The notes under the pieces were generated by a model. That model saw nothing but the letters and a program-made list of their open reading frames with translations. It was not told the origin of the DNA and ran no database searches. Below, in pieces: positions 1,783 to 12,379 of a stretch of 14,042 bases of DNA; within the stretch, counting starts at the first letter, position 1; the number at the start of each line of letters is the position of its first letter. Source of the DNA: Shewanella sp. (lineage in GTDB: Bacteria; Pseudomonadota; Gammaproteobacteria; Enterobacterales; Shewanellaceae); NCBI GenBank assembly GCA_004195335.1, contig SDWK01000681.1, positions 1 to 14,042 on the forward strand, given 5' to 3'. A program made the translations under genes and the position numbers.

Positions 1783-2589
1783 TTAGCTTTTTGGCGTCTC
1801 TCTCTTTTCTTCTAATTTCTGATTCAATTGGGCCACTTGCTCCATCAACAGGCCTTGATTGGCTTCCATTCTTTCCAGTGCCTCTTGCAGTTCACAACGG
1901 ATCTGCTGGCTTTGTTCTTCAAGTCTTTCTGACTCATCTGGAGCGATAAACAGAGAGGCCATATAACCCGAGATAACACCGAAAAAACTGACGCCACAAA
2001 TAATGACGACACCACCAATGACGTGGCCAGCAGCCGTCACCGGGTAATAATCACCATAGCCCACGGTCGAGATAGTGACTAAGGTCCACCAGATCGCATC
2101 TTCTGCGGTATGAATGTTTGCGTCCGGCACGCCCGCCTCTACGATCAGCATCAATACAGATGCGAAAGTCAGGATGGTGACCATTGCAACTAAGAGACTG
2201 GCGAGTGTCGCTTCTCTGCGCTGCTTTATGATGGGGATGATTAGGGACTGAGTCATACGGATAAGGCGTATCACCCGTAAAATCTGGAATAGCCTTGCGA
2301 GCCTTAGGGGCTCTATTGCCGGAATGCTGGCAACGAAATCGATCCAGTTGTGTTTGATATAATCAATTTTATTCTCTGCTCTGAACAAATTAACAAAGAA
2401 GTAGGTCATAAAAATCATGCAGATAGTGAAATCTACAAACACCAAGAGTCGCTTGGTTTCCGAGTCTAGAGAAACAAAGCTGAGAACAATAACCACAATG
2501 ACAGACAATAGTGAAAGCAGCATCATTGCAAGTTGGAAGGGGGTTGGAGCTTGCTCCGGGTGAAGTAACCAGCGTTTTTTCTCTGCCAT
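1783..2589 (-). CDS. Voltage-gated potassium channel-like protein with C-terminal coiled coil
   Basis: This is an inner-membrane six-helix cation channel. Counting from the chosen ATG, S1 is about 18-41, S2 49-69, S3 80-91 and S4 95-113. S4 carries regularly spaced arginines (R96, R99, R105, R108, R111), as expected of a voltage sensor. S5 is about 129-150, the pore helix 163-174, the K+ selectivity filter TVGYGD is 175-180, and S6 is about 187-215. The tail (about 218-263) is charged, with heptad-like spacing, and reads as a cytoplasmic coiled coil. No RCK/TrkA nucleotide-binding domain is present. I prefer the ATG at 2589, with GGACGAG upstream. A GTG at 2607 would add six residues but lacks a clear ribosome-binding site. 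It is the last gene of the - strand block, 71 bp after the RHH-like gene. Potassium selectivity follows from the filter; the trigger and physiological role are not visible. Confidence 0.88.
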   Translation of the reverse strand: MAEKKRWLLHPEQAPTPFQLAMMLLSLLSVIVVIVLSFVSLDSETKRLLVFVDFTICMIFMTYFFVNLFRAENKIDYIKHNWIDFVASIPAIEPLRLARLFQILRVIRLIRMTQSLIIPIIKQRREATLASLLVAMVTILTFASVLMLIVEAGVPDANIHTAEDAIWWTLVTISTVGYGDYYPVTAAGHVIGGVVIICGVSFFGVISGYMASLFIAPDESERLEEQSQQIRCELQEALERMEANQGLLMEQVAQLNQKLEEKRETPKS

Positions 2590-2660
2590 GATCTCGTCCA
2601 ATATCACTCTACTTTATCGATTGCCCACCCATCTTTATGGTAGGGATCTGCATGAGTGTA

Positions 2661-2990
2661 CTAGCTTTTATCAACAAAGTGGATGAGATCGTCTAACACA
2701 TGTTTCTTTATTTCGAGTTGCTGCTCTGCCGATAGGTCATATTTTTCGGCTAACAGGACATAATCTTCTGGGCTGAGAGAGACGGTGAGTCTGGGACGTT
2801 TTGGCCGTTTCGTTACCGAAAGCCCTAGAATGGTACGGATCTGATCCGACGGGCTGAAGCCTGAATCTAGCGCGGCTTTACGAATAGAGTATTGGAACTT
2901 CTCATCGAGATCGAAAGCCACCTGTGTCGCCTTGGCCGCTTTCTGGTTTTGTAACCATTGTTCCGGTAGTGGGCTCTTCTGCTTAGTCAT
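2661..2990 (-). CDS. Small protein with two ribbon-helix-helix-like units, possible DNA-binding regulator
   Basis: I do not recognise a named family for this 109-residue protein. Residues 21-56 read as a short strand (TQVAFD), a helix (29-42), a glycine turn (G44) and a second helix (46-56), which is the layout of an Arc/MetJ/CopG ribbon-helix-helix unit. Residues 66-105 repeat the pattern less clearly: strand PRLTVSL, helix 73-84, helix 87-105. A basic linker, KRPKRPR (61-67), joins them. The ATG is preceded by AAGG at suitable spacing. It lies between yjfK and the channel gene on the same strand, with short gaps, so it is probably co-transcribed with both. A role as the local regulator is an inference from fold pattern and position; it could equally be a small channel-associated protein. 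Confidence 0.72.
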   Translation of the reverse strand: MTKQKSPLPEQWLQNQKAAKATQVAFDLDEKFQYSIRKAALDSGFSPSDQIRTILGLSVTKRPKRPRLTVSLSPEDYVLLAEKYDLSAEQQLEIKKHVLDDLIHFVDKS

Positions 2991-3018
2991 ACCGTTTACC
3001 TTAAAAATTATTGTTAAG

Positions 3019-3108
3019 CTACGAGCTACGAGCTACGAGCTGCGAGTTGCGAGTGAGACTTGCTTTGCCCTGTCTTTGGCTCGCTGCTCGCGACTCACGG
3101 GCTACGAG
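3019..3108. repeat. Heptamer array (CTACGAG)n with an inverted, diverged arm
   Basis: Three exact CTACGAG units (3019-3039) are followed by CTGCGAG and TTGCGAG (3040-3053). After a 20-odd base spacer the same unit appears inverted and diverged (CTCGCTG, CTCGCGA, about 3080-3093), then once more direct at 3102-3108. The two arms can form an imperfect hairpin. It lies in the 125-bp gap between yjfK and the RHH-like gene. Short peptides translated from such arrays (SYELRVAS-like) occur as spurious hypothetical proteins, so the + strand reading frame across it is not a gene. Confidence 0.8.
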
Positions 3109-3115
3109 CTTATTA

Positions 3116-3772
3116 TTATTTCCCTGGCCAATAATCTCTGATATCGGACAATGGACGATACAAGGTTAACATGACATCGGTTTCACCACCGTCATAGACT
3201 TCGACATCGATAGCAAATCTCTCATCATCATCCAGTAATAAGTAGGATTCAAATGCTTCGCCTGTTGCCCCATCTTCATCCTGTGGCGGCTTCTTGCCAC
3301 GATAATCTTCGCGATGAAAGTAACCAAACTGAGTAAAGTTAACTTGATGATATTCTTTGCCTAACCACTGTTCAAACTCTGCGGCAAGTTCATTGGGTAA
3401 AGCTAGAGTCGTAAGCTGTGCTTGTTCATCCTCTTCGAAAATGGCCCCAAAGTGTTCGAGATCGAATATCTGTTCAACTTGTCCGCGATTGACCTTAATG
3501 GAGAGGGCTAAATAGGTTTCATCATCTTCATCGAGTGAGAGAAAAATCGTATCTTTGCCATGACCTTTAAGCACCCATTCAGGCTTCTGACTGCGCTCAT
3601 ACTCGTAGGTGTTGACGGATTCGACTCTTAACTGTTGGCCGCGAAGCTGAGGCGGTAAGGCAAAACTGTCATCGAGGGAGATCATATCTCCGATCATGAG
3701 ATCAGAGGGGCTCTCGAGTTGACGTTTTGGCACCTCTTTCTTACCGAAAAGGCCTTTTAAAAATCCCATCAT
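3116..3772 (-). CDS. yjfK: DUF2491 family protein (YjfK)
   Basis: This is a soluble acidic protein of 218 residues, matching the approximately 219 of E. coli YjfK; its biochemical function is unknown. Visible features are an N-terminal hydrophobic/basic segment (MMGFLKGLFGKK), a mixed alpha/beta body rich in Asp and Glu, an FGYFHREDY segment near the middle of the C-terminal half, and a closing YRPLSDIRDYW. It sits downstream of the DUF2170 and PspA-like genes in the same order as yjfI-yjfJ-yjfK in E. coli, which supports the assignment. Two consecutive ATG codons follow an AGGAG. The second (3769) has the better spacing, so the true start may be one codon later. A 202-bp gap holding a strong hairpin separates it from yjfJ, and three 16-bp direct repeats lie just upstream, so it may have its own control. 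No membrane segment is evident. Confidence 0.85.
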   Translation of the reverse strand: MMGFLKGLFGKKEVPKRQLESPSDLMIGDMISLDDSFALPPQLRGQQLRVESVNTYEYERSQKPEWVLKGHGKDTIFLSLDEDDETYLALSIKVNRGQVEQIFDLEHFGAIFEEDEQAQLTTLALPNELAAEFEQWLGKEYHQVNFTQFGYFHREDYRGKKPPQDEDGATGEAFESYLLLDDDERFAIDVEVYDGGETDVMLTLYRPLSDIRDYWPGK

Positions 3773-3974: not shown

Positions 3975-4661
3975 TTACTTGCGCGACTTTAGGCGGTCAA
4001 GTACAGCATTAGCATTTGATTTTTGCTCACCGATACCCGCTTCAGCGAGTTTAGCGTGCAGTGACTTATCACTGTTTTCATCGGCCAGTTGCTCGGCTGC
4101 AACCAAACGGTCATCAAACTGCTGCTGACGAGCCTTGATACGCTCCAGTGAATCTTTAGCATTTAATAGCTTAGAGCTGCTGCCTGCGAAAGAATCTGTG
4201 ATGCTAGCCGTAGCCTTTTGAACACTTTCAGTGGTTTTCACCATGCTCAGTTGACGTTGGTAATCGGTTAGCTGACGCTCAGTCTTACGTACGAGATCTT
4301 TAAGACGAGTCGCATGAGCGGTGAAGTTAACGTTTGCACCCTCTTGCTCTGCAAGCTCTTGGTCTAGTTGAGAGATCTTCTCAGCAACTTCCATTGCTAA
4401 GGCTTCATTTTCTTTCTCAAGCGCTTGAGTCGCATAACCTTCATGTTCGCTGATAGAGCGCTTTAGACGGTCAACTTCACGGCTAGCTTGCATCTCTTTA
4501 GCCATAACGTCAGTTAATTCACGTTTTGCTTTAGTCAGGTGATTCTCTGCATCACGGATCTCCTGCTCGAAGATACGGGTTGAGTTAGCATCGACGATGT
4601 TTTGGCCAACTTCAGTAGCACCACCACGAAAAGCGGTTAAAATCTTGTTTAGTATGCCCAT
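3975..4661 (-). CDS. yjfJ: PspA/IM30 family membrane-stress protein (YjfJ)
   Basis: This is a peripheral inner-membrane protein of the PspA/IM30/Vipp1 family, which bind and stabilise stressed membranes through oligomeric coiled-coil assemblies. The 228 residues begin with an amphipathic stretch (MGILNKILTAFRGGATEVGQ, 1-20) suited to membrane insertion, followed by long charged helices to about 192. The C-terminus carries KLAEAGIG (204-211) and AVLDRLKSRK (219-228), which closely match the E. coli YjfJ tail. An AGGAG lies 9 nt before the ATG. It is 73 bp downstream of yjfI, and a strong hairpin follows. No pspF, pspB or pspC gene is in the window, so regulation is not that of the classical psp operon. 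The family assignment is firm; paralogue identity as YjfJ rests on the tail and on the flanking yjfI and yjfK. Confidence 0.92.
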   Translation of the reverse strand: MGILNKILTAFRGGATEVGQNIVDANSTRIFEQEIRDAENHLTKAKRELTDVMAKEMQASREVDRLKRSISEHEGYATQALEKENEALAMEVAEKISQLDQELAEQEGANVNFTAHATRLKDLVRKTERQLTDYQRQLSMVKTTESVQKATASITDSFAGSSSKLLNAKDSLERIKARQQQFDDRLVAAEQLADENSDKSLHAKLAEAGIGEQKSNANAVLDRLKSRK

Positions 4662-4734: not shown

Positions 4735-5148
4735 TTACTTTAAGAAGTCGACCATCTCGTCGATGACTTCCAGGCAGTTATCGGAAAGAACTGAAAGCTC
4801 TTGTTCGATCTCCTGCATATTTGACTGAACAGAAAGTGCACCGTAAACCACATATTTATCATCGATTTTTGCAAATGATGACAGTGGCATTGGGATGTTG
4901 AGCTCTAACATGGTCTCAAGCATCTCTACGCGACGTTCCTGATTTACTTCATCTTCGCCCCAAAGGTAACTGATGCAGAGAACTTGGTTATCTGTCACCG
5001 ATACGAATACAGGGATCTCTTCACGTCCAACGATATTGACCTGCAATACCTCGACTTCGCCATTGATTGGATAACAATCAAATTGCAAGCCTGTTTGGCT
5101 CTTGTCACAAAGATCATTGAGGTGGTTGGCAATAGTGTGAATATTCAT
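4735..5148 (-). CDS. yjfI: DUF2170 family protein (YjfI)
   Basis: This is a small acidic cytoplasmic protein of 137 residues, close to E. coli YjfI in length and always considered with yjfJ; its molecular function is unknown. The core holds strand-rich segments EVEVLQVNIV (31-40) and PVFVSVTDNQVLCIS (46-60), then the characteristic SFAKIDDKYVVYGAL (91-105) and an acidic C-terminal helix. The start ATG follows AAGGA with a 5-nt spacer. It is the first gene after the promoter and twin palindromes at 5161-5209, so it probably heads the yjfI-yjfJ transcript. I see no transmembrane segment or signal peptide. Confidence 0.85.
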   Translation of the reverse strand: MNIHTIANHLNDLCDKSQTGLQFDCYPINGEVEVLQVNIVGREEIPVFVSVTDNQVLCISYLWGEDEVNQERRVEMLETMLELNIPMPLSSFAKIDDKYVVYGALSVQSNMQEIEQELSVLSDNCLEVIDEMVDFLK

Positions 5149-5160
5149 ATTTGTCCTTAT

Positions 5161-5173
5161 GACATATTATGTC
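5161..5173. promoter_or_regulatory. Palindromic operator, promoter-distal copy (downstream of +1)
   Basis: GACATATTATGTC is a perfect 13-bp palindrome (6-bp arms around one base). It sits just before the yjfI ribosome-binding site and would begin about +2 relative to the start point predicted from the -10 box at 5182-5187. A protein bound here would block initiation or escape. The sequence is the exact reverse complement of the copy at 5195-5207 and of the core of the glnE-proximal copy. Confidence 0.7.
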
Positions 5174-5181
5174 TGCGGTTA

Positions 5182-5209
5182 AAGATAGCACTACGACATA
5201 ATATGTCAA
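5182..5209 (-). promoter_or_regulatory. Sigma70-type promoter for yjfI
   Basis: Read on the - strand, a consensus -35 box TTGACA (5204-5209) is followed, after 16 bp, by TATCTT (5182-5187), a 4/6 match to the -10 consensus. The -35 box overlaps one palindrome and the predicted start point lies just before the other. This is the clearest promoter in the block. Confidence 0.6.
5195..5207. promoter_or_regulatory. Palindromic operator overlapping the -35 box
   Basis: GACATAATATGTC is a perfect 13-bp palindrome that covers four bases of the TTGACA -35 element. Its centre is 34 bp from that of the partner palindrome, a little over three helical turns, so the two sites could bind one multimer cooperatively. 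Occlusion of -35 plus a second site at +1 is a typical repression layout. The regulator is not identified. Confidence 0.7.
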
Positions 5210-5233
5210 GCGCTATTATTCAGAAAGTTTCAC

Positions 5234-5256
5234 GACTTGGCTTTTTAGGTCAAGTC
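5234..5256. other. Hairpin downstream of the spermidine-synthase-like gene
   Basis: GACTTGGC (5234-5241) pairs with GTCAAGTC (5249-5256) over an A/T-rich loop. It lies 8 bp after the stop of the - strand spermidine-synthase-like gene. The - strand stem has one mismatch and no U-tail, so it is a weak terminator candidate. Confidence 0.3.
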
Positions 5257-5263
5257 TTAGCTG

Positions 5264-7060
5264 TTATGGTTTTAAAAATAAAGTGACGCCTTGATTTTCT
5301 GCCCATGCCTTTTGGTGATATTGGTACAGTTGCATCGAGCCTATTCGGTTGGGTTCGATCTTATCCATATCCTGATAGAAGTTACCGGGGAACTCAAATG
5401 ACCCTTTAATGAGCCCCGGAGTCAGCCAGTCATCTTTTATCGATAGCTGTTTTATGTCACTCAATCTTGCCTTAGCATTTTTACCCGATGCAGTGGCTAT
5501 GCTCCAACCCCATTCACCAAAGCTGGGTACGTTGTGATGATACTGACTCACATCAAAACCCGCCAGTGCTAAGGTTTTTCCAACGGATATAAAGGCCTTA
5601 GGGGCATGATAGGGCGAGGTTGATTGTACGGTTAGAGCCCCATCTGCACTCAAGAGTTCCTTTAATTTTTTATAAAAGAGATCGGAGTAGAGTTTATTCA
5701 AATCAGGATGGCTCGGGTCGGGCAGATCGACAATGATGGCATCGTACTTCTCACCCTTACGCAGTAGCTTATCCACCCCGTTAAAGGCGTCATCGACTAT
5801 GACGTTGACCCTAGGGTCATTGAGCGCATCACCATTTAGCTTGAGCAAGGTTTGGCTTAAACGTGTCGGCATTTCCACATCGTGAGAGGTGAAAAGCTCA
5901 AGCAGATCTTTATCGAGATCCATCAAGGTAACAGATTCAGGTTGCCATTTAAGTACTTGCTTTAACCCCAAACCATCACCGCCACCTATGATCAATATCT
6001 TGTTGTGACGTGCACTTGCTTCCAGTGTCGGGTGAACGAGAAAGGCATGATAAATATGTTCATCTTCGCTGGAAAACTGCAGTCGTCCATTGATATAGAG
6101 TGAGTAAACAGGAGCTATGCCTGCGCCTCTCAAACGTTCAGTAAAGGTTAGCTGTTGAAAGCGAGTCGATTTGGCATAAATAACCTGATCTTTATAGAGC
6201 AGGTTATTAAAGTTTTGCTCCCAACCCGGACCGTGCCAGGCTAGCAAGAGTAATATTGCTGACGCGATAAAGTGGCCAACGAGTAAGATTTTTACGAAAC
6301 GAATACGATCCCAGAAACGCCAGATAAAGATGAAGCCTGCGAGTAAGTTAAAGCTGGCCGTTAATGCCGCCGCGAGCTGAATATCGATAGCGAGCATAAA
6401 GCTGACCCAGATGGCAGCACCTATGCCTGCACCGACATAATCAGCCCCATAAATCGTACCTGCGTTATGCATCAAGTGTTCATCACACAGAGACTGACGT
6501 ACACGGGCAATAAGTGGGATTTCCATGCCTATCATCAAGCCGAGTAAAACGCCCCAAACATAAGGTAGGTATTCACTTAAGTGTTGCAGTAGACCGATAA
6601 AGCCACCTTCAGGCAGTAGATCCGGTGGCAAGCCTAAGGTGCTGGCGATAATAAGGGGAAGTTGCTGACCGAAGCCAATGACTGCCGCTGTGATTAATAT
6701 AGCCAGAGAGCCACAAAGCGCGACGCTGAGCTCTAGAACGGCAAAGCCTGTGAAAGCGCAGCGTATTTTCCTAGCAGCAAAGGCACCGACTCCCATAGAG
6801 ACTATCATCAGGCCTATCATGGTATAAATAGCAGCTTCTAATGCACCTAAGATGCGACCAGCATAATGGGACAGTAGGTATTCATAGATCAAGCCACAAC
6901 CTGCTAATACGGCCATAATGCCGAGCAGTAAGGTGTCATCGAACCAGCTTAACTTTCGTTCTTTGCCTAGGGTATTTGTGCCTTGTGAAGGGGATTGGTC
7001 CTTTGCATCAGGCAGAGTCTCTTCAGGCTGGGTTAGTTTGGAACTCGTCACTTCACTCAC
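5264..7060 (-). CDS. Membrane-anchored spermidine-synthase-like aminopropyltransferase
   Basis: This fusion of an inner-membrane domain and a cytosolic Rossmann-type aminopropyltransferase domain is 598 residues long; bacterial SpeE is usually under 320. About seven membrane segments are visible (roughly 44-64, 72-95, 104-131, 166-185, 204-225, 228-249, 257-275). The C-terminal domain shows YAKSTRFQQL (295-304), DEHIYHAFLVHP (333-344), the decarboxy-SAM loop IGGGDG (358-363), MDLD (380-383), VDDAFN (422-427) and VDLPDPSHPD (444-453). D445 and D448 align with the catalytic aspartates of SpeE. Two departures stand out: the Glu of the SpeE YHE motif is Ala here (A339), and the VEID glutamate that binds the donor ribose is Asp (D381). 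The acceptor may therefore not be putrescine. A GTG at 7060 is the chosen start, with only a weak GAG before it. A terminator-like hairpin lies upstream, so expression may depend partly on read-through from DUF350. Similar fusions travel with DUF350 and PspA-like genes, as I recall from comparative genomics. Confidence 0.85.
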   Translation of the reverse strand: MSEVTSSKLTQPEETLPDAKDQSPSQGTNTLGKERKLSWFDDTLLLGIMAVLAGCGLIYEYLLSHYAGRILGALEAAIYTMIGLMIVSMGVGAFAARKIRCAFTGFAVLELSVALCGSLAILITAAVIGFGQQLPLIIASTLGLPPDLLPEGGFIGLLQHLSEYLPYVWGVLLGLMIGMEIPLIARVRQSLCDEHLMHNAGTIYGADYVGAGIGAAIWVSFMLAIDIQLAAALTASFNLLAGFIFIWRFWDRIRFVKILLVGHFIASAILLLLAWHGPGWEQNFNNLLYKDQVIYAKSTRFQQLTFTERLRGAGIAPVYSLYINGRLQFSSEDEHIYHAFLVHPTLEASARHNKILIIGGGDGLGLKQVLKWQPESVTLMDLDKDLLELFTSHDVEMPTRLSQTLLKLNGDALNDPRVNVIVDDAFNGVDKLLRKGEKYDAIIVDLPDPSHPDLNKLYSDLFYKKLKELLSADGALTVQSTSPYHAPKAFISVGKTLALAGFDVSQYHHNVPSFGEWGWSIATASGKNAKARLSDIKQLSIKDDWLTPGLIKGSFEFPGNFYQDMDKIEPNRIGSMQLYQYHQKAWAENQGVTLFLKP

Positions 7061-7085
7061 TCGTATCTCACAGTCAAACGCTTGT

Positions 7086-7120
7086 GGATAAAATAAAACG
7101 GCTAATCAAATGATTAACCG
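7086..7120 (-). terminator. Intrinsic terminator between DUF350 and the spermidine-synthase-like gene
   Basis: On the - strand a 9-bp stem (7099-7107 with 7112-7120, one G-U) closes on a 4-nt loop and is followed by TTTTATTTTATCC. It begins 30 bp after the DUF350 stop. On the + strand the stem has a C-A mismatch and a poorer tail, so it acts on - strand RNA. I see no obvious promoter in the remaining gap, so partial termination with read-through is possible. Confidence 0.72.
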
Positions 7121-7150
7121 AATTTTATGTGTTATTACAAAAGTACTGGG

Positions 7151-8050
7151 CTAGTACATCAGGCTCGTTAGGATAAGAGCTACAGCGACACTAATTGCCA
7201 GCTCTACGGTAGCGATACCAATATTGTGTTGCTGCTCGACTTCCTGAGCTAAATGGATTCCCGATAACACCAACTTTTTCACTATCTTAATCAGCACTGA
7301 AAGTGCAACTAGCATGATCACCGAGAAGATTAACCAGCCAACAAGGTTAGCAATATAGGCTTCCGGGTTATAGATGATGAAGTGGCTGGCAGCATTAAAA
7401 CTCAAAGCCATGGCTAACATATAGCCGCTATGGCGAATTGCGACTGCGGTGTGGCCTTGAACTAGCGCATCTTGCATCGAAGCATCTTGGTTTCGCTTAG
7501 CATAACGGTACTCACGAAAGCGAGTTAATAGCACTAGCATTAACTGAGAGATTGCAAAGGCACTGAAGATGGCAATAAAGGTGTCAACGGTCAGATCTTC
7601 TGCCCAGATAAGTACTGAGCGAATGATGATGGCGGTAGCAATTGCAGCACTCGCATCAACGATAGCCACTGAGATATTACCTTTGAGGATCTGCTCATTT
7701 TTATTGAACTCATTAAGGGCAATTTTATCGTGTAGATATCGACCCAGTTTAATTAGGATTAACCCAAATAAACCATAAGCACTCATGCCAATCGCTTCGA
7801 AGATATAAGAATCAGCAGCCTCACCTGAAATTGCGCCAGTGAGCACAATGCCTAGGCCAGCAATTGCCCCAGCAGTGCTTATCCCGAAGGCAAAATTATC
7901 TTTCTCTGCCAGTTCGACACGGCTATCAACATTCGCAGTCCAGCCTTGAAGGTAACGCATTAAGGTTAAAAGAATAATGGCAATAGTCAGATCGATCACT
8001 AAGATAATGGCGAGATCTGTTGTGATGCCGAAGTTTTGAAAAAATGTCAT
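7151..8050 (-). CDS. yjfL: Duplicated DUF350 inner-membrane protein (YjfL family)
   Basis: This integral membrane protein has about eight helices (roughly 11-33, 52-73, 84-103, 124-148, 156-176, 201-221, 233-258, 275-298). Single DUF350 proteins such as E. coli YjfL have about 130 residues; this one has 299 and contains two DUF350 domains in tandem. A recurrent unit (polar residue, N/H, small residues, A-I, then a long hydrophobic helix) appears four times, at DNFAFGIS (51-58), GNISVAIV (124-131), GHTAVAIR (199-206) and HNIGIATVE (275-283). The molecular function of DUF350 is unknown. The start follows AAGGA and lies 13 bp after the lipoprotein stop, so the two genes are almost certainly co-transcribed. 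A terminator-like hairpin follows. In E. coli yjfL is downstream of yjfK; here it is upstream of the set. Confidence 0.87.
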   Translation of the reverse strand: MTFFQNFGITTDLAIILVIDLTIAIILLTLMRYLQGWTANVDSRVELAEKDNFAFGISTAGAIAGLGIVLTGAISGEAADSYIFEAIGMSAYGLFGLILIKLGRYLHDKIALNEFNKNEQILKGNISVAIVDASAAIATAIIIRSVLIWAEDLTVDTFIAIFSAFAISQLMLVLLTRFREYRYAKRNQDASMQDALVQGHTAVAIRHSGYMLAMALSFNAASHFIIYNPEAYIANLVGWLIFSVIMLVALSVLIKIVKKLVLSGIHLAQEVEQQHNIGIATVELAISVAVALILTSLMY

Positions 8051-8063
8051 GGTATTTCCTTAT

Positions 8064-9023
8064 CTATTTGCCTCGGCGTACACCGCGAGTAGTGCGACTG
8101 TTAGAATTGCGGAAGTTGCTGTTCTTAGAGTAATTAGAACGGAACTTGCTGCCACTTTTACTGGGAGTGCCTGTCGAGCTCGCCTTGGGTGTACTCGTGC
8201 TTTGACGCGATAAGCTTGTTGAGCCTGTGCGTGATTTTGCATAGGGGCTGTCGAATTTTTTCCCCTGTGAGTTGAACTGTTTCTTGGTTCGCTCGAAGGT
8301 TTTGTTCTGTGCACTCGCCTGTTTCGGTGAGGTGTAACGGTAACGCCCTACATCATTGTAGTAACTGTAGTTTCTTCGGCTGGACCAGCGATCGTAGCCG
8401 ATAGGGCCGCGCATCACATTGGAGAACATGGAATACATGCCGTACCAGGCCCAGAAAGACGTACCATTTGAGCCTGTTTGCCAGTTGCCATAGCCCGGGT
8501 TACCGACTAATTGACTACCCGCACCCAAATCTTCGGCACCATTGGCGAGAGCCGCAGCCTCACGACTGATGGAGTTGACTCGGCCCAAGGCGCCTTTAGA
8601 CATGTCTGCAACGACATTCAGTGGATCGGAAAGCATATCGTTATACAAGCTAGGATCGGCGGCTTGATAGATATTTTCAGCTTCAGCTAATTGCTGATCT
8701 AGACTGACATAGTTCTTGGCATCGCCCACCTCTTTATAACGACGCACCAAGGAGGTGAACATAGGCCCTTTAGTGGTCGCGTCTTTAGCGAGTTCATTGA
8801 GTAGCGGAGCCATATCGGTTTGCTGCTTGGCTAAAATACTGGTGTATTGTTTTAGCAAGGTGGCATTACGGATCTGACCATTATCGAGCATTTGGCTAAG
8901 GGAATCGATTCTCTGCCCGGCTAATTGCTGAAATTGAGCAATGCGTTCGGGCCTGTCATCGCCACAACCCACTAAGGTTAATAGCAATGTAAGAGTGAGA
9001 ACACGTATGAACATCGCTGCCAT
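8064..9023 (-). CDS. Putative lipoprotein with basic Ser/Asn-rich tail, family not recognised
   Basis: Residues 1-20 form a lipoprotein signal ending in the lipobox LVGC, with the lipidated Cys at 20. The following GDD has Asp at +3 rather than +2, so outer-membrane sorting is plausible. Residues 21-165 are predicted helical and mostly polar. A distinctive aromatic/glycine stretch (TSFWAWYGMYSMFSNVMRG, 188-206) follows, then a Tyr/Arg-rich part (210-230). The last 90 residues are low-complexity, strongly basic and rich in Ser, Asn, Thr and Lys, ending RTTRGVRRGK. I do not recognise the family. E. coli yjf clusters carry a DUF1190 lipoprotein (YjfM), also with a low-complexity tail, so this could be a functional counterpart, but I see no convincing homology. 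The ATG at 9023 follows GGAG at good spacing; an ATG three codons later is less well placed. It heads the - strand block. An 84-codon frame overlapping its 3' end is a shadow of the biased tail. Confidence 0.82.
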   Translation of the reverse strand: MAAMFIRVLTLTLLLTLVGCGDDRPERIAQFQQLAGQRIDSLSQMLDNGQIRNATLLKQYTSILAKQQTDMAPLLNELAKDATTKGPMFTSLVRRYKEVGDAKNYVSLDQQLAEAENIYQAADPSLYNDMLSDPLNVVADMSKGALGRVNSISREAAALANGAEDLGAGSQLVGNPGYGNWQTGSNGTSFWAWYGMYSMFSNVMRGPIGYDRWSSRRNYSYYNDVGRYRYTSPKQASAQNKTFERTKKQFNSQGKKFDSPYAKSRTGSTSLSRQSTSTPKASSTGTPSKSGSKFRSNYSKNSNFRNSNSRTTRGVRRGK

Positions 9024-9049
9024 GTTTTCTCCATTTATATTTGGTAGAG

Positions 9050-9118
9050 GCTGATAAAATATAATCAGCTTAGTATTTCATTAGGTTATAGTAACCCTTA
9101 CTTTGAAATAAAAAGTAA
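9050..9118. promoter_or_regulatory. Cluster of three dyads upstream of the lipoprotein gene
   Basis: Three inverted repeats lie within 70 bp: GCTGAT/ATCAGC (9050-9055, 9064-9069; 8-nt spacer), GGTTA/TAACC (9084-9088, 9092-9096) and TTACTTT/AAAGTAA (9098-9104, 9112-9118; 7-nt spacer). They occupy the expected promoter and leader of the - strand lipoprotein-DUF350 unit. I could not fix a -35/-10 pair with confidence, so they are listed as a candidate control region only. Confidence 0.4.
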
Positions 9119-9174
9119 TCTTTTTTTGTTTAAACTCAGTTCGGTGATGAGATTAAATCTGGTTCGTTATATTA

Positions 9175-9446
9175 GTTATACCAGTCTCATTAAATATGTT
9201 ATCAATTCAGAGTCACTCAGACTTTTAAATTCAAGGCGTATTGGTGAGAGAATGGTTATTCCCTTGTAAGTCAATGCAACGCAGAAGTGGAAAGTCTGAG
9301 AGACTCCCACAGGGCGGGTTTCAAAGCCCTGCATGCTACGTTCGATGCTTTTGATATAGAATAACTATGATCTTCAATCATCCGCCTTGCCTTCAGCGCT
9401 TTGAATTCCCGCTGAATGAACAGATATTCGATGAAATTGGTATTAC
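9175..9446. mobile_element. MITE-like non-autonomous element, about 272 bp
   Basis: The two ends are imperfect terminal inverted repeats: 9175-9200 and the reverse complement of 9421-9446 agree at 19 of 26 positions (shared core ATACCA, then TCAT, then AATAT). Inside is a second inverted pair, 9210-9225 with 9291-9306 (15 of 16 positions), plus a hairpin CAGGGC/GCCCTG (9310-9315, 9326-9331). There is no open reading frame of note and no clear target-site duplication. It fills most of the 9024-9493 intergenic region and ends 4 bp before the glnE-proximal palindrome. The ends resemble repeats I recall from Shewanella intergenic regions; a genome-wide search would settle copy number. Confidence 0.65.
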
Positions 9447-9450
9447 AACC

Positions 9451-9467
9451 AAGACATAATATGTCTT
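9451..9467. promoter_or_regulatory. Palindromic operator upstream of glnE
   Basis: AAGACATAATATGTCTT is a perfect 17-bp palindrome with 8-bp arms. Its central 13 bases are identical to the sites at the yjfI promoter. It lies 47 bp before the chosen glnE ATG. The surrounding AT-rich sequence could hold a promoter (TTACAA at 9443-9448, TTAATT or GATAAT downstream), but none has good spacing and consensus together. Confidence 0.68.
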
Positions 9468-9514: not shown

Positions 9515-12379
9515 ATGGAAAATATCAGTAACAAGCCGTTACCCGCCATTATCACTGACGTTGCGGATCGTTACTGGCAGAGGTTAAATGAAGCGTGGCC
9601 TGAACTTTCGACGTCAATAGACAAGCAATGCAGTGATGAGTTGTATCGGATCATGGGGTTGAGTGATTTTATCGCGGAGCAATTATGCCGACATCCTGAC
9701 TGGATCCCCGCCCTGTTTGATGGCCAATTAGACAGGGTTGAAAGGATCAGTTTCGATAAAGAGCTGCATGAACTCCTGGAGCCTTGCCGCAGCGAAGATG
9801 AAGCGAAAGCCATTTTAAGACGCTACCGAAATCGGTTGATGGTGCGACTGGCCTGGCGAGACTTTTTCGGTTATGCGAGCCTGGAGGATTCACTGCTCGA
9901 TCTATCCGCCTTGGCCGAGGCGCTGATTATTGCCGGTCGTGACTGGCTTTATCGTGAGCTCTGTCAGCAATACGGAACACCTTGTGATAATGAGGGGAAT
10001 CCTCAGCCTTTGATGGTTATCGGGATGGGCAAGCTGGGAGGACGTGAACTCAATTTTTCTTCAGATATCGATCTTATCTTTGCCTTTCCTGAGCACGGAG
10101 AGACACAAGGTGGCCGCCGCGCCATAGATAACCAGCAGTTCTTTATTCGAATGGGCCAGCGTCTGGTGAACCTACTCCATCAGGTTACCGTGGATGGTTT
10201 TGTCTACCGTGTCGATATGCGCCTTCGCCCTTATGGAGAGAGTGGACCTCTGGTGGTCAGTTTTAGCGCTCTGGAAGATTACTATCAGGAGCAAGGCCGC
10301 GACTGGGAGCGTTATGCCATGGTTAAGGCTCGTGCGCTGGGCCCATGGACGGCATTTTCTGATGAGCTGCACTCCATGTTGAGGCCGTTTGTTTATCGCC
10401 GCTATATCGATTTTTCGGCTATCGAGTCCCTGCGCAAAATGAAGCAGTTAATCACTCAAGAGGTCAGGCGACGTAAACTTACCGATAATATAAAGCTCGG
10501 CGCCGGTGGGATACGGGAAGTCGAATTTGTGGTGCAGAGTTTCCAACTTATCCGGGGAGGACGGGAGCCTTCGCTGCGTCAGCAAAGTTTATTCGCCGCT
10601 ATCAATACCCTGTATACCTTAGGGCAGCTTGAATATTTGGCTGTCGATGATCTCAAGCAGAGTTATCTGTTATTGCGACGAGTGGAAAATTTACTTCAAG
10701 CCATCGGTGATAAACAAACACAGACATTGCCCGATAATGGCCTGGATTGGTATCGATTGTGCCACTGTATGGGGATGGCATCTGAGGCCGAGCTGAGAAC
10801 GCATATCGAGTCTGCAATGAGTAAAATTCATCGCCACTTTAATGATACGGTCGGTGGTAATGAGCAGGATGAGCCGTCTCAATTGTGGACTTTGCAGCTG
10901 TGGAGCGTGCAGGATGATGAGGATGCACAAGCGCTCATTAGCGAGCAGTCTATCGACGATCCGGATCTTTGGCCCATGCTTAAATCATGGCGTGATAGCA
11001 TTGCTAAACGTTCCATTGGACCCCGTGGCCGGGATACCTTAGATAAGTTGATGCCCTGGCTCTTGCGTGAGTTAACACCGCTGGTATCTCCTTCTAAAGC
11101 CTTTGCGCCCGTGTCTAAGGTACTAGATCAGATTCTGACCCGTACCACCTATCTTGAACTCTTGTATGAGAATCCCGGCGCTCGTCAACAGCTGGTGAGT
11201 TTATGTTGTGCCAGCCCCTGGATTTCGACTCAGCTGGCAAAATTTCCCATGTTGCTCGATGAGTTGATCGATCCGGCTCAACTTTATGATACAACCTCAT
11301 TAGATGACTACAGCAGCGAGTTGCGTCAGTACCTGTTGCGAGTACCTGAAGAGGATATGGAGCAGCAGATGGAGGGGCTGAGACAGTTTAAACTATCGCA
11401 GCAATTGAAAATTGCTGCGGCTGACGTGACCGGGGTATTACCTGTGAGTCAGGTGAGCGAACATCTGACCTTGCTGGCAGAAGCGATAATTGAGCAAGTG
11501 GTGATGCAAGCCTGGTTACAGGTCAGCTCCCGCCATGGCGTTCCTACTCATCTTGACGAGGGGGATATGGGGTTTGCCGTTATCGGCTATGGTAAGGCCG
11601 GTGGGATTGAGCTGGGTTATGGCTCAGATCTTGATTTGGTATTTTTACACAGTTACTCCCGCGAACGTTTTCCTGAGCATACAGAGACTAATGGTGATCG
11701 TCCGATAGAGGCTGGCCATTTTTATCTCAAGTTGGCGCAAAGGATTTTACACCTGTTTTCAACCCGAACGACCTCGGGTGAGCTTTATGAAGTCGATATG
11801 CGTCTTCGCCCCTCCGGTGCATCGGGCCTACTCGTGAGTGAGATAGAGAACTTCGGTCAGTATCAGCGTGACGAGGCATGGACATGGGAGCATCAAGCCT
11901 TAGTTAGAGCCCGATTTATGTTTGGAGATAATGCGTTATCCAGTCGTTTTAGCACCTTGCGCTCTGATGTTTTACAGCTGCATAGAGAGAAGAGCGCTTT
12001 GGCTCAAGCGGTGAGAGATATGCGTTTGAAGATGCGTGATCACCTGCTTAAGGTGAGCCCTGATATGTTCGATCTTAAACAGAGTGCCGGCGGGATTGCA
12101 GATATTGAATTTATTGCTCAATATCTGGTGTTAGCCAATGCACATGAACACAGTGAGCTCTGTACTTGGTCTGATAACATCCGAATATTTTCAACGCTCG
12201 GCGAGTTAGCCCTGTTGCCTCATAATGACGCTCAGGAGTTAATTCAAGCTTATCTATTTTTGCGTGATGAAAACCACAGGCTGACATTGCAACAAAGGCC
12301 CGGGCAGCTAGCCGCGGCACAGGTAGATCAATATGCACAGCGGGTGACAGAAATTTATCAAAACGTGCTCGATTTCTAG
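9515..12379 (+). CDS. glnE: Bifunctional glutamine synthetase adenylyltransferase/deadenylase
   Basis: GlnE attaches AMP to, and removes it from, the conserved tyrosine of glutamine synthetase GlnA, under control of PII and glutamine, and so tunes nitrogen assimilation. The 954 residues (E. coli 946) contain both nucleotidyltransferase domains. The N-terminal deadenylase has GMGKLGG and SSDIDLIF (170-189; metal ligands D184 and D186). The C-terminal adenylyltransferase has GYGKAGG and GSDLDLVF (D705, D707). Each is followed by a second conserved segment, [14 protein letters not shown] and [14 protein letters not shown]. The C-terminus is complete. I chose the ATG at 9515; it has AGGG upstream at a rather long distance. 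An in-frame TTG at 9494 would add seven residues and has no ribosome-binding site. A palindrome shared with the yjfI promoter lies upstream. In E. coli ygiF precedes glnE and hldE follows; neither neighbour is adjacent here. Confidence 0.97.

Follow-up and report, generated by a model that had tools for sequence, protein, structure and literature searches.

In a 14,042-nucleotide stretch of Shewanella sp. DNA (contig SDWK01000681.1; hereafter, the window), the 13-bp palindrome GACATAWTATGTC occurs twice in front of the yjfI-pspA operon and a third time in the gap between yjfM and glnE. This palindrome is a real, conserved signal of a regulon of the membrane-stress type, a role that we infer from its targets. 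We consider it probable that a small repressor, holding membrane-maintenance genes low, uses GACATAWTATGTC as its operator; judging from the sequences, the most likely repressor is a 109-aa protein, presumably of the ribbon-helix-helix (RHH) class, encoded in the same operon (2661–2990, minus strand). The case is built from features read from the sequence: where the sites are, how well they are conserved, how they lie relative to promoter-like elements, and that they co-occur with the protein.

GACATAWTATGTC or its reverse complement is found exactly at 5195–5207 (O1), 5161–5173 (O2) and 9453–9465 (O3), all assigned to the minus strand, where the preliminary description had located it; at O3, AA/TT arms extend the palindrome to 9451–9467. 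With A or T as the centre base, the site is a perfect 13-bp palindrome, GACATA-W-TATGTC. The genome of the window (5.93 Mb, 1060 contigs) contains five copies, three in the window and one each at C388:8972 and C1060:61, versus about 0.3 expected by our estimate from base composition and zero copies of the reversed pattern taken as a control, consistent with the earlier claim that three copies in 14 kb are far more than chance would give. It is present in all 60 sampled genomes of the genus, including that of the window, at 4–9 copies each and 362 in total, a figure that includes copies doubled at contig ends. The reversed control yielded one copy in each of two of these genomes.

The first gene behind O1 and O2 is yjfI (4735–5148, minus strand; DUF2170, PF09938, E = 1.2e-36). 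Its promoter consists of the -35 hexamer TTGACA (5204–5209) and the -10 hexamer TATCTT (5182–5187), both on the minus strand and separated by a 16-bp spacer. As had been described previously, TTGACA (5209–5204) overlaps the upstream copy of the palindrome, O1, the other copy, O2, is located at the predicted start point, and the centres of the two are 34 bp apart. The same arrangement is found in 80 named loci, which are the best 80 of 303 relatives encoding a homologue of the small protein of the operon and belong to Shewanella or Parashewanella, except for one Thalassotalea. In all 80 loci both operators are exact and O1 is preceded by TT, completing TTGACA, whereas the -10 hexamer and its spacer are identical in 68. 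The distance between the centres of O1 and O2 is 34 bp in 67 loci and 33–38 bp in the remainder, and O2 ends 12–14 bp before an ATGAA in 79. Every locus has a single operator pair located 5' of the gene for the 109-aa protein, so that, by position on the locus, the candidate regulator is encoded behind its own operator in 80 of 80 cases. Per-column conservation of the 13-mer is uninformative here because the loci had been picked by the exact motif. Since the yjfI copies cover the -35 element and the predicted start, the layout of the sites fits a repressor.

The targets of the operator were determined by placing all copies in nine genomes of the genus (G000, G009, G021, G028, G033, G036, G043, G055 and G058). 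In G009, G028 and G058, the yjfI pair was located by its spacing and by how far it lies from the yjfM site, and in G043 by the known position of yjfI; in the remaining genomes it was read directly. Two copies of G021 that are repeated at contig ends were left out. Among the 54 distinct placed copies, 51 mark the same set of promoters. The majority (45/54) correspond to five core positions found in all nine genomes, namely, yjfI (twice), yjfM/glnE, htpX and nfeD. Four copies precede a gene for a bacterial-PH membrane protein behind argA, assigned by a bPH_5 Pfam match in G036 and by likeness for the others, and two, both in G055, precede a gene for a CAAX-protease-like (PF02517) protein. The other three copies, one within a large open reading frame (ORF) of G043 and two in G058, lie elsewhere. 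The G043 copy (site 2001 of L266, 1–3590) is the sole exact copy inside a large ORF in the nine genomes.

In the genome of the window, the copy at C1060:61 ends 46 bp before htpX (Peptidase_M48) and that at C388:8972 precedes nfeD and a Band_7 (SPFH) gene. Inspection by eye places the operator on different promoter elements at different targets. At htpX it contains the -10 element, with a CTTGAA -35 lying before it. At yjfM it contains the -35 element (TCGACA in most sequences), followed by TATA 17–18 bp further on in 12 of 12 other sequences of the genus. At nfeD it precedes CTGATATAGT, which is retained in most Shewanella rows; here, about 21 bp separate the end of the operator from the conserved (extended) -10. 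In other families of the order, the site is found before pspA (L077 by profile match, L081 by eye), a flotillin-like Band_7 pair (L298 by profile match, L079 by eye), a Band_7/HflK-like gene (L078), nhaA (L082 by profile match, L286 and L294 by eye) and a gene for an M16 peptidase (L064 by profile match, L073 by eye). A further double operator, with a spacing of 63 bp, is present in two genomes (L057, 2501–2576, and G037:C5:53772–53847); in L057 it precedes a gene for a CAAX-protease-like membrane protein.

Sites are thus conserved upstream of the same orthologues, at five positions in nine of nine genomes and at yjfI in all 80 named loci, as is characteristic of a regulon. The preliminary description had proposed that one regulator acts through a common palindromic operator at a PspA-type unit, and had suggested searching the host genome and its relatives for copies. 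The conservation before orthologues supports this proposal, the copies being kept in place rather than scattered at random. That description had overlooked further targets, htpX and nfeD-SPFH among them, as well as the gene for the probable regulator, which lies in the same window.

The identity of the regulator is suggested by its phylogenetic co-occurrence with the sites. Among 247 genomes of the order, the 109-aa protein is encoded in 77 and DUF2170 (yjfI) in 106. At least two sites are present in 56 of the 77 genomes with the protein versus 2 of the 170 without it (Fisher 3e-35). When only carriers of yjfI are considered, the corresponding numbers are 56/77 and 1/29 (Fisher 2.5e-11); because of this contrast, the sites track the 109-aa protein and not the target gene. 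The pattern recurs within families: G177 is the only one of 18 f7 genomes to encode the protein and also the only one with sites, whereas in f6 all seven protein-positive genomes have at least two sites and the 11 protein-negative ones have none, except for one in G256. In G177, G246 and G293, the yjfI pair represents the only exact sites, pointing to a regulator inside the operon, and the 109-aa protein is the sole DNA-binding candidate recognised there.

Where the protein is absent, sites are generally absent too: at least one is found in 13 of the 170 protein-negative genomes and at least two in only two of them. One of the latter, G166, carries yjfI, and its contig stops about 850 bp past this gene, short of the place where the gene for the protein would be (L297); in the other, G139, one site is near a cold-shock-like ORF and one is in a gap. 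Six of the 13 genomes were inspected, the single-site genomes G077, G120, G136, G142, G200, G241 and G282 being left out. Lone sites in genomes without the protein include one near the end of a gyrB-like ORF (G256) and one within an ORF (G157). In L289 of f21, which lacks the candidate repressor, the 13-mer overlaps the start of a cold-shock-protein-like ORF, and it occupies apparently the same place in L290 and L291 of the same family, also without the repressor; this shared site possibly reflects another constraint.

Of the 77 genomes with the protein, 21 have fewer than two exact sites, 17 of them from Psychromonas (f11/g12) and the other four from f25/g26. In Psychromonas, a variant of the operator, GACATTWAATGTC, is found at yjfI in 17 of 17 genomes. 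In 19 other genomes searched, it was found only in G064. As a control, the reversed form of GACATTWAATGTC is less clean, being present in 7 of the 36 genomes examined, three of them Psychromonas; the argument thus rests on the position of the variant at yjfI. The presumed recognition strand of the 109-aa protein reads QIAF in 10 of 10 Psychromonas loci checked, which have the ATT operator, whereas in 25 loci with the ATA operator it is QVAF in 23, QLAF in one and QMAF in one. The other V-strand loci among the 40 checked comprise three from f25 and two with no operator within the stretch. The yjfI site of f25 is itself a variant, GACTTATTATGTC, in three of three loci read, and the one exact f25 site placed, of four, is located at htpX (L282). 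The size of the regulon also appears to differ between lineages. Genus g3 has 2–3 exact copies, which form the yjfI pair in each of four loci examined (L147–L150), and both this genus and Psychromonas look like cases of local autoregulation. Copy numbers reach 4–10 in Shewanella, f12, f16 and part of f6, with a wider regulon where read, suggesting that the regulon may have grown from local to global.

MetJ/Arc/CopG (RHH) repressors are small proteins with a strand-helix-helix fold that bind palindromic, promoter-overlapping operators and regulate their own expression. The 109-aa protein resembles them in its small size, a strand-helix-helix-like pattern, the palindromic operators at promoters that are tentatively assigned to it and predicted autoregulation, and some of its homologues are annotated as ribbon-helix-helix in the sources. 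It differs in having no Pfam RHH model above the cut-off and in a C-terminal half (about residues 60–109) that matches no assigned domain; indeed, the protein of the window has no Pfam or NCBIfam match above the cut-off at all, and no solved homologue by sequence search. Below the cut-off, RHH matches were obtained among 46 members of the family with NikA-like (11 members, best E = 0.014), RHH_1 (two, 0.14) and FitA-like RHH (one, 0.19) models, which stand among unrelated models. A tandem arrangement of two RHH units in one chain was also considered and rejected: when residues 14–60 were compared with 60–109 by profile, the sole match spanned 18 columns and was out of register (probability 43).

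Several observations weigh against the 109-aa protein as an RHH repressor. The Pfam model matched by most members is not an RHH one but PF25760, which describes a phage family with no function given (18 of 46 members; best E = 0.0019); the RHH profiles rank behind it. The AlphaFold model of the monomer is weak (predicted local distance difference test, 75.5; predicted template modelling score, 0.39) and has no strand, and there is no significant fold match, with NikA, AtaR, FitA and VapB being among the insignificant rows. The four f25 genomes have the protein but a single exact site, and in four f15 loci only one yjfI site is exact. The co-variation of operator and recognition strand in Psychromonas concerns one lineage and one event, and is suggestive only. 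Furthermore, an unlinked regulator co-inherited with the 109-aa protein would give the same co-occurrence, and the nfeD operator lies 5' of the -10, where activators, too, can bind.

In the model we favour, the repressor would occupy the -35 element and the start point of yjfI, thereby regulating its own operon, the -35 of the yjfM-yjfL-speE operon and the -10 of htpX, and would sit beside the extended -10 of nfeD-SPFH. Membrane-maintenance genes would be kept low in this way until a membrane-related signal frees the repressor. Occlusion is the simplest reading of the site positions; binding, repression and the signal itself form the conjectural part of the model.

An alternative, which we regard as rather unlikely, is that the operator is read by another, unlinked transcription factor and that the 109-aa protein is a co-regulated passenger. 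The lack of an above-cut-off domain match or a solved homologue would be compatible with such a scenario. However, the sites follow the 109-aa protein and not yjfI, the yjfI pair is all that G177, G246 and G293 possess in exact form, strand and operator change together in Psychromonas, and, according to PMC11237479, the operon in some cases ends with a gene for an RHH factor. It is very unlikely that the regulator is instead an activator using these sites. The distance of about 21 bp between the nfeD operator and the conserved -10 would suit one, but elsewhere the sites cover the start point (O2 of yjfI), the -35 (O1 of yjfI, and yjfM) and the -10 (htpX), positions that normally block RNA polymerase, and the perfect TTGACA of yjfI should need no activator. 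As for the copies being products of chance or of a dispersed repeat, a repeat does lie about 6 bp from O3, and three of the 54 placed copies, including the one inside the large ORF of L266, fall outside the regulon. Nevertheless, the 13-mer is conserved before orthologues, and the genome contains 44 matches to the repeat versus five copies of the 13-mer, the repeat moreover ending short of O3, which rules it out as the origin of this operator and leaves the explanation as a whole with a negligible probability.

The remaining question concerns glnE (9515–12379, plus strand; PF03710, E = 1e-179), the divergent neighbour of O3, which had been proposed to be joined with the PspA unit under one regulator, thereby linking nitrogen metabolism to membrane stress. 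The ATG of glnE at 9515 lies 49 bp past the end of O3, and in the Shewanella sequences compared O3 is likewise shortly upstream of glnE. O3 is also located 5' of yjfM, the minus-strand gene starting at 9023, with the repeat in between, a relationship overlooked earlier. The conserved promoter at 9453, with the TCGACA-like -35 inside the operator, faces yjfM-yjfL-speE in the 12 sequences mentioned above, and no glnE-facing promoter consensus was recognised at O3 by eye, without statistical scoring. In f6 genomes, the position of O3 relative to yjfM is maintained, but its spacing from glnE is variable (176 bp in L076, about 70 bp in L262 and about 215 bp in L263). In loci of other genera, glnE is within the stretch in 24 of 40 and directly and divergently beside yjfI in 20 of 40; this persistent neighbourhood is seen in L114–L126, L128, L129, L138–L140, L151 and L152. 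The four f15 loci (L128, L129, L151 and L152) have one exact operator each, and it overlaps the initial codons of glnE, which would favour control of this gene. By contrast, loci in which glnE lies over 1 kb away (L147–L150) or outside the stretch read (L133) retain the yjfI pair. The expected conservation before orthologues held at yjfI, and glnE proved to be a conserved divergent neighbour. Control of glnE by the operator is not supported; we set glnE aside as the target of O3 and, given the adjacency, retain it as an unlikely additional one.

The operon of the window is the same as that of the second phage shock protein (PSP) operon group of Ravi et al. 2024 (PMC11237479; example accessions AAN56744, AAN56746 and AAN56747). 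As outlined there, the group comprises a CesT/Tir-like YjfI (DUF2170), PspA, a membrane spermidine-synthase-like protein, YjfL (DUF350), a lipoprotein, a DUF4178 protein and, in some cases, an RHH transcription factor encoded by the final gene. The outline names this factor without an operator, targets outside the operon or a mode of action. The Pseudomonas bac operon (PMC10948618) is comparable in being of the yjfI/bacA-pspA type. PspF and sigma54 control pspA and an operon of this type.

The yjfI promoter described here is of the sigma70 type, TTGACA/TATCTT with two operators, in contrast to the control of pspA by PspF and sigma54. A sigma54 promoter (-24/-12) with at most one mismatch was found before yjfI in none of 20 genomes, out of the 29 yjfI-positive ones without the protein. 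The Bacillus subtilis SigW regulon includes pspA, flotillin/NfeD pairs and other membrane-protection genes; unlike the palindromic operator on ordinary promoters found here, it is run by an extracytoplasmic function sigma factor. Cpx controls htpX as an envelope-stress target in Escherichia coli, and differs from the present case in both operator and protein family. In the open-licence literature, either spelling of the palindrome returned no relevant occurrence, only an Ephedra phylogeography paper, and the titles and beginnings of abstracts of the papers listed gave no description of this operator or regulon, RegPrecise being outside this search; the suggestion that the regulator is undescribed agrees with this. 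Word searches detected no CopG, ribbon-helix-helix, htpX or psp term in a Shewanella regulon paper (PMC3223726) and no htpX, CopG or ribbon-helix-helix term in PMC5343134, whereas S. oneidensis htpX is listed in a table of upstream sequence matches in PMC3168786.

The present analysis provides a PSP-type operon, of whose control we found no account, with an operator, a list of targets and a named candidate repressor, and suggests a mode of membrane-stress control unlike that by PspF/sigma54. It also groups DUF2170, DUF350, DUF4178-like, NfeD/SPFH and bacterial-PH proteins, the functions of which are unclear, into one response whose role is testable in Shewanella. More tentatively, a stand-alone RHH repressor might run a PspF-independent membrane-stress regulon across marine gammaproteobacteria, covering PspA, HtpX, NfeD/SPFH and flotillin-like scaffolds, PH-domain and CAAX-protease-like proteins and NhaA, which would have grown from a local autoregulator (Psychromonas, g3) to a global one (Shewanella and others) and be released via other products of its operon, for instance the chaperone-like YjfI. 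The NCBIfam model of Pseudomonas BacA gives a match to YjfI that stays below the cut-off (46 of 300 bits), and a Pseudomonas bacA mutant is reported to accumulate bac operon proteins (PMC10948618). As a speculation, YjfI could act on the regulator.

Behind yjfI, the operon continues on the minus strand with pspA/yjfJ (3975–4661; PspA_IM30, E = 4.2e-40), a DUF4178-like gene (3116–3772; E = 6.8e-05, 23.5 bits versus a cut-off of 25) and the gene for the candidate repressor, singled out by its co-occurrence with the sites and by weak RHH profile matches among others. The same order, yjfI-pspA-DUF4178-like-109-aa protein, is found in the four loci read (L046, L048, L053 and L058). Short direct repeats (ctacgagctacgagctgcgag and similar, by eye) lie at 3015–3110, between the genes for the candidate repressor and the DUF4178-like protein. 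An ion channel gene (1783–2607, minus strand; Ion_trans, E = 2.1e-18) is located 3' of the candidate repressor. The upstream unit, also on the minus strand, is composed of yjfM (8064–9023), its first gene and the probable target of O3, named by position, the product of which has no Pfam or NCBIfam match, yjfL (7151–8050; DUF350, E = 6.8e-38) and speE, encoding a membrane-anchored spermidine-synthase-like protein (5264–7060; E = 3e-33). The dispersed repeat between O3 and yjfM occupies 9175–9446; near-full matches to it in the genome span query positions 6–277, and its ends are imperfectly inverted, by eye. Starting about 6 bp past O3, it puts TAATAC where relatives have the -10 of yjfM. Because the repeat displaces that -10, transcription of yjfM-yjfL-speE may differ in this strain.

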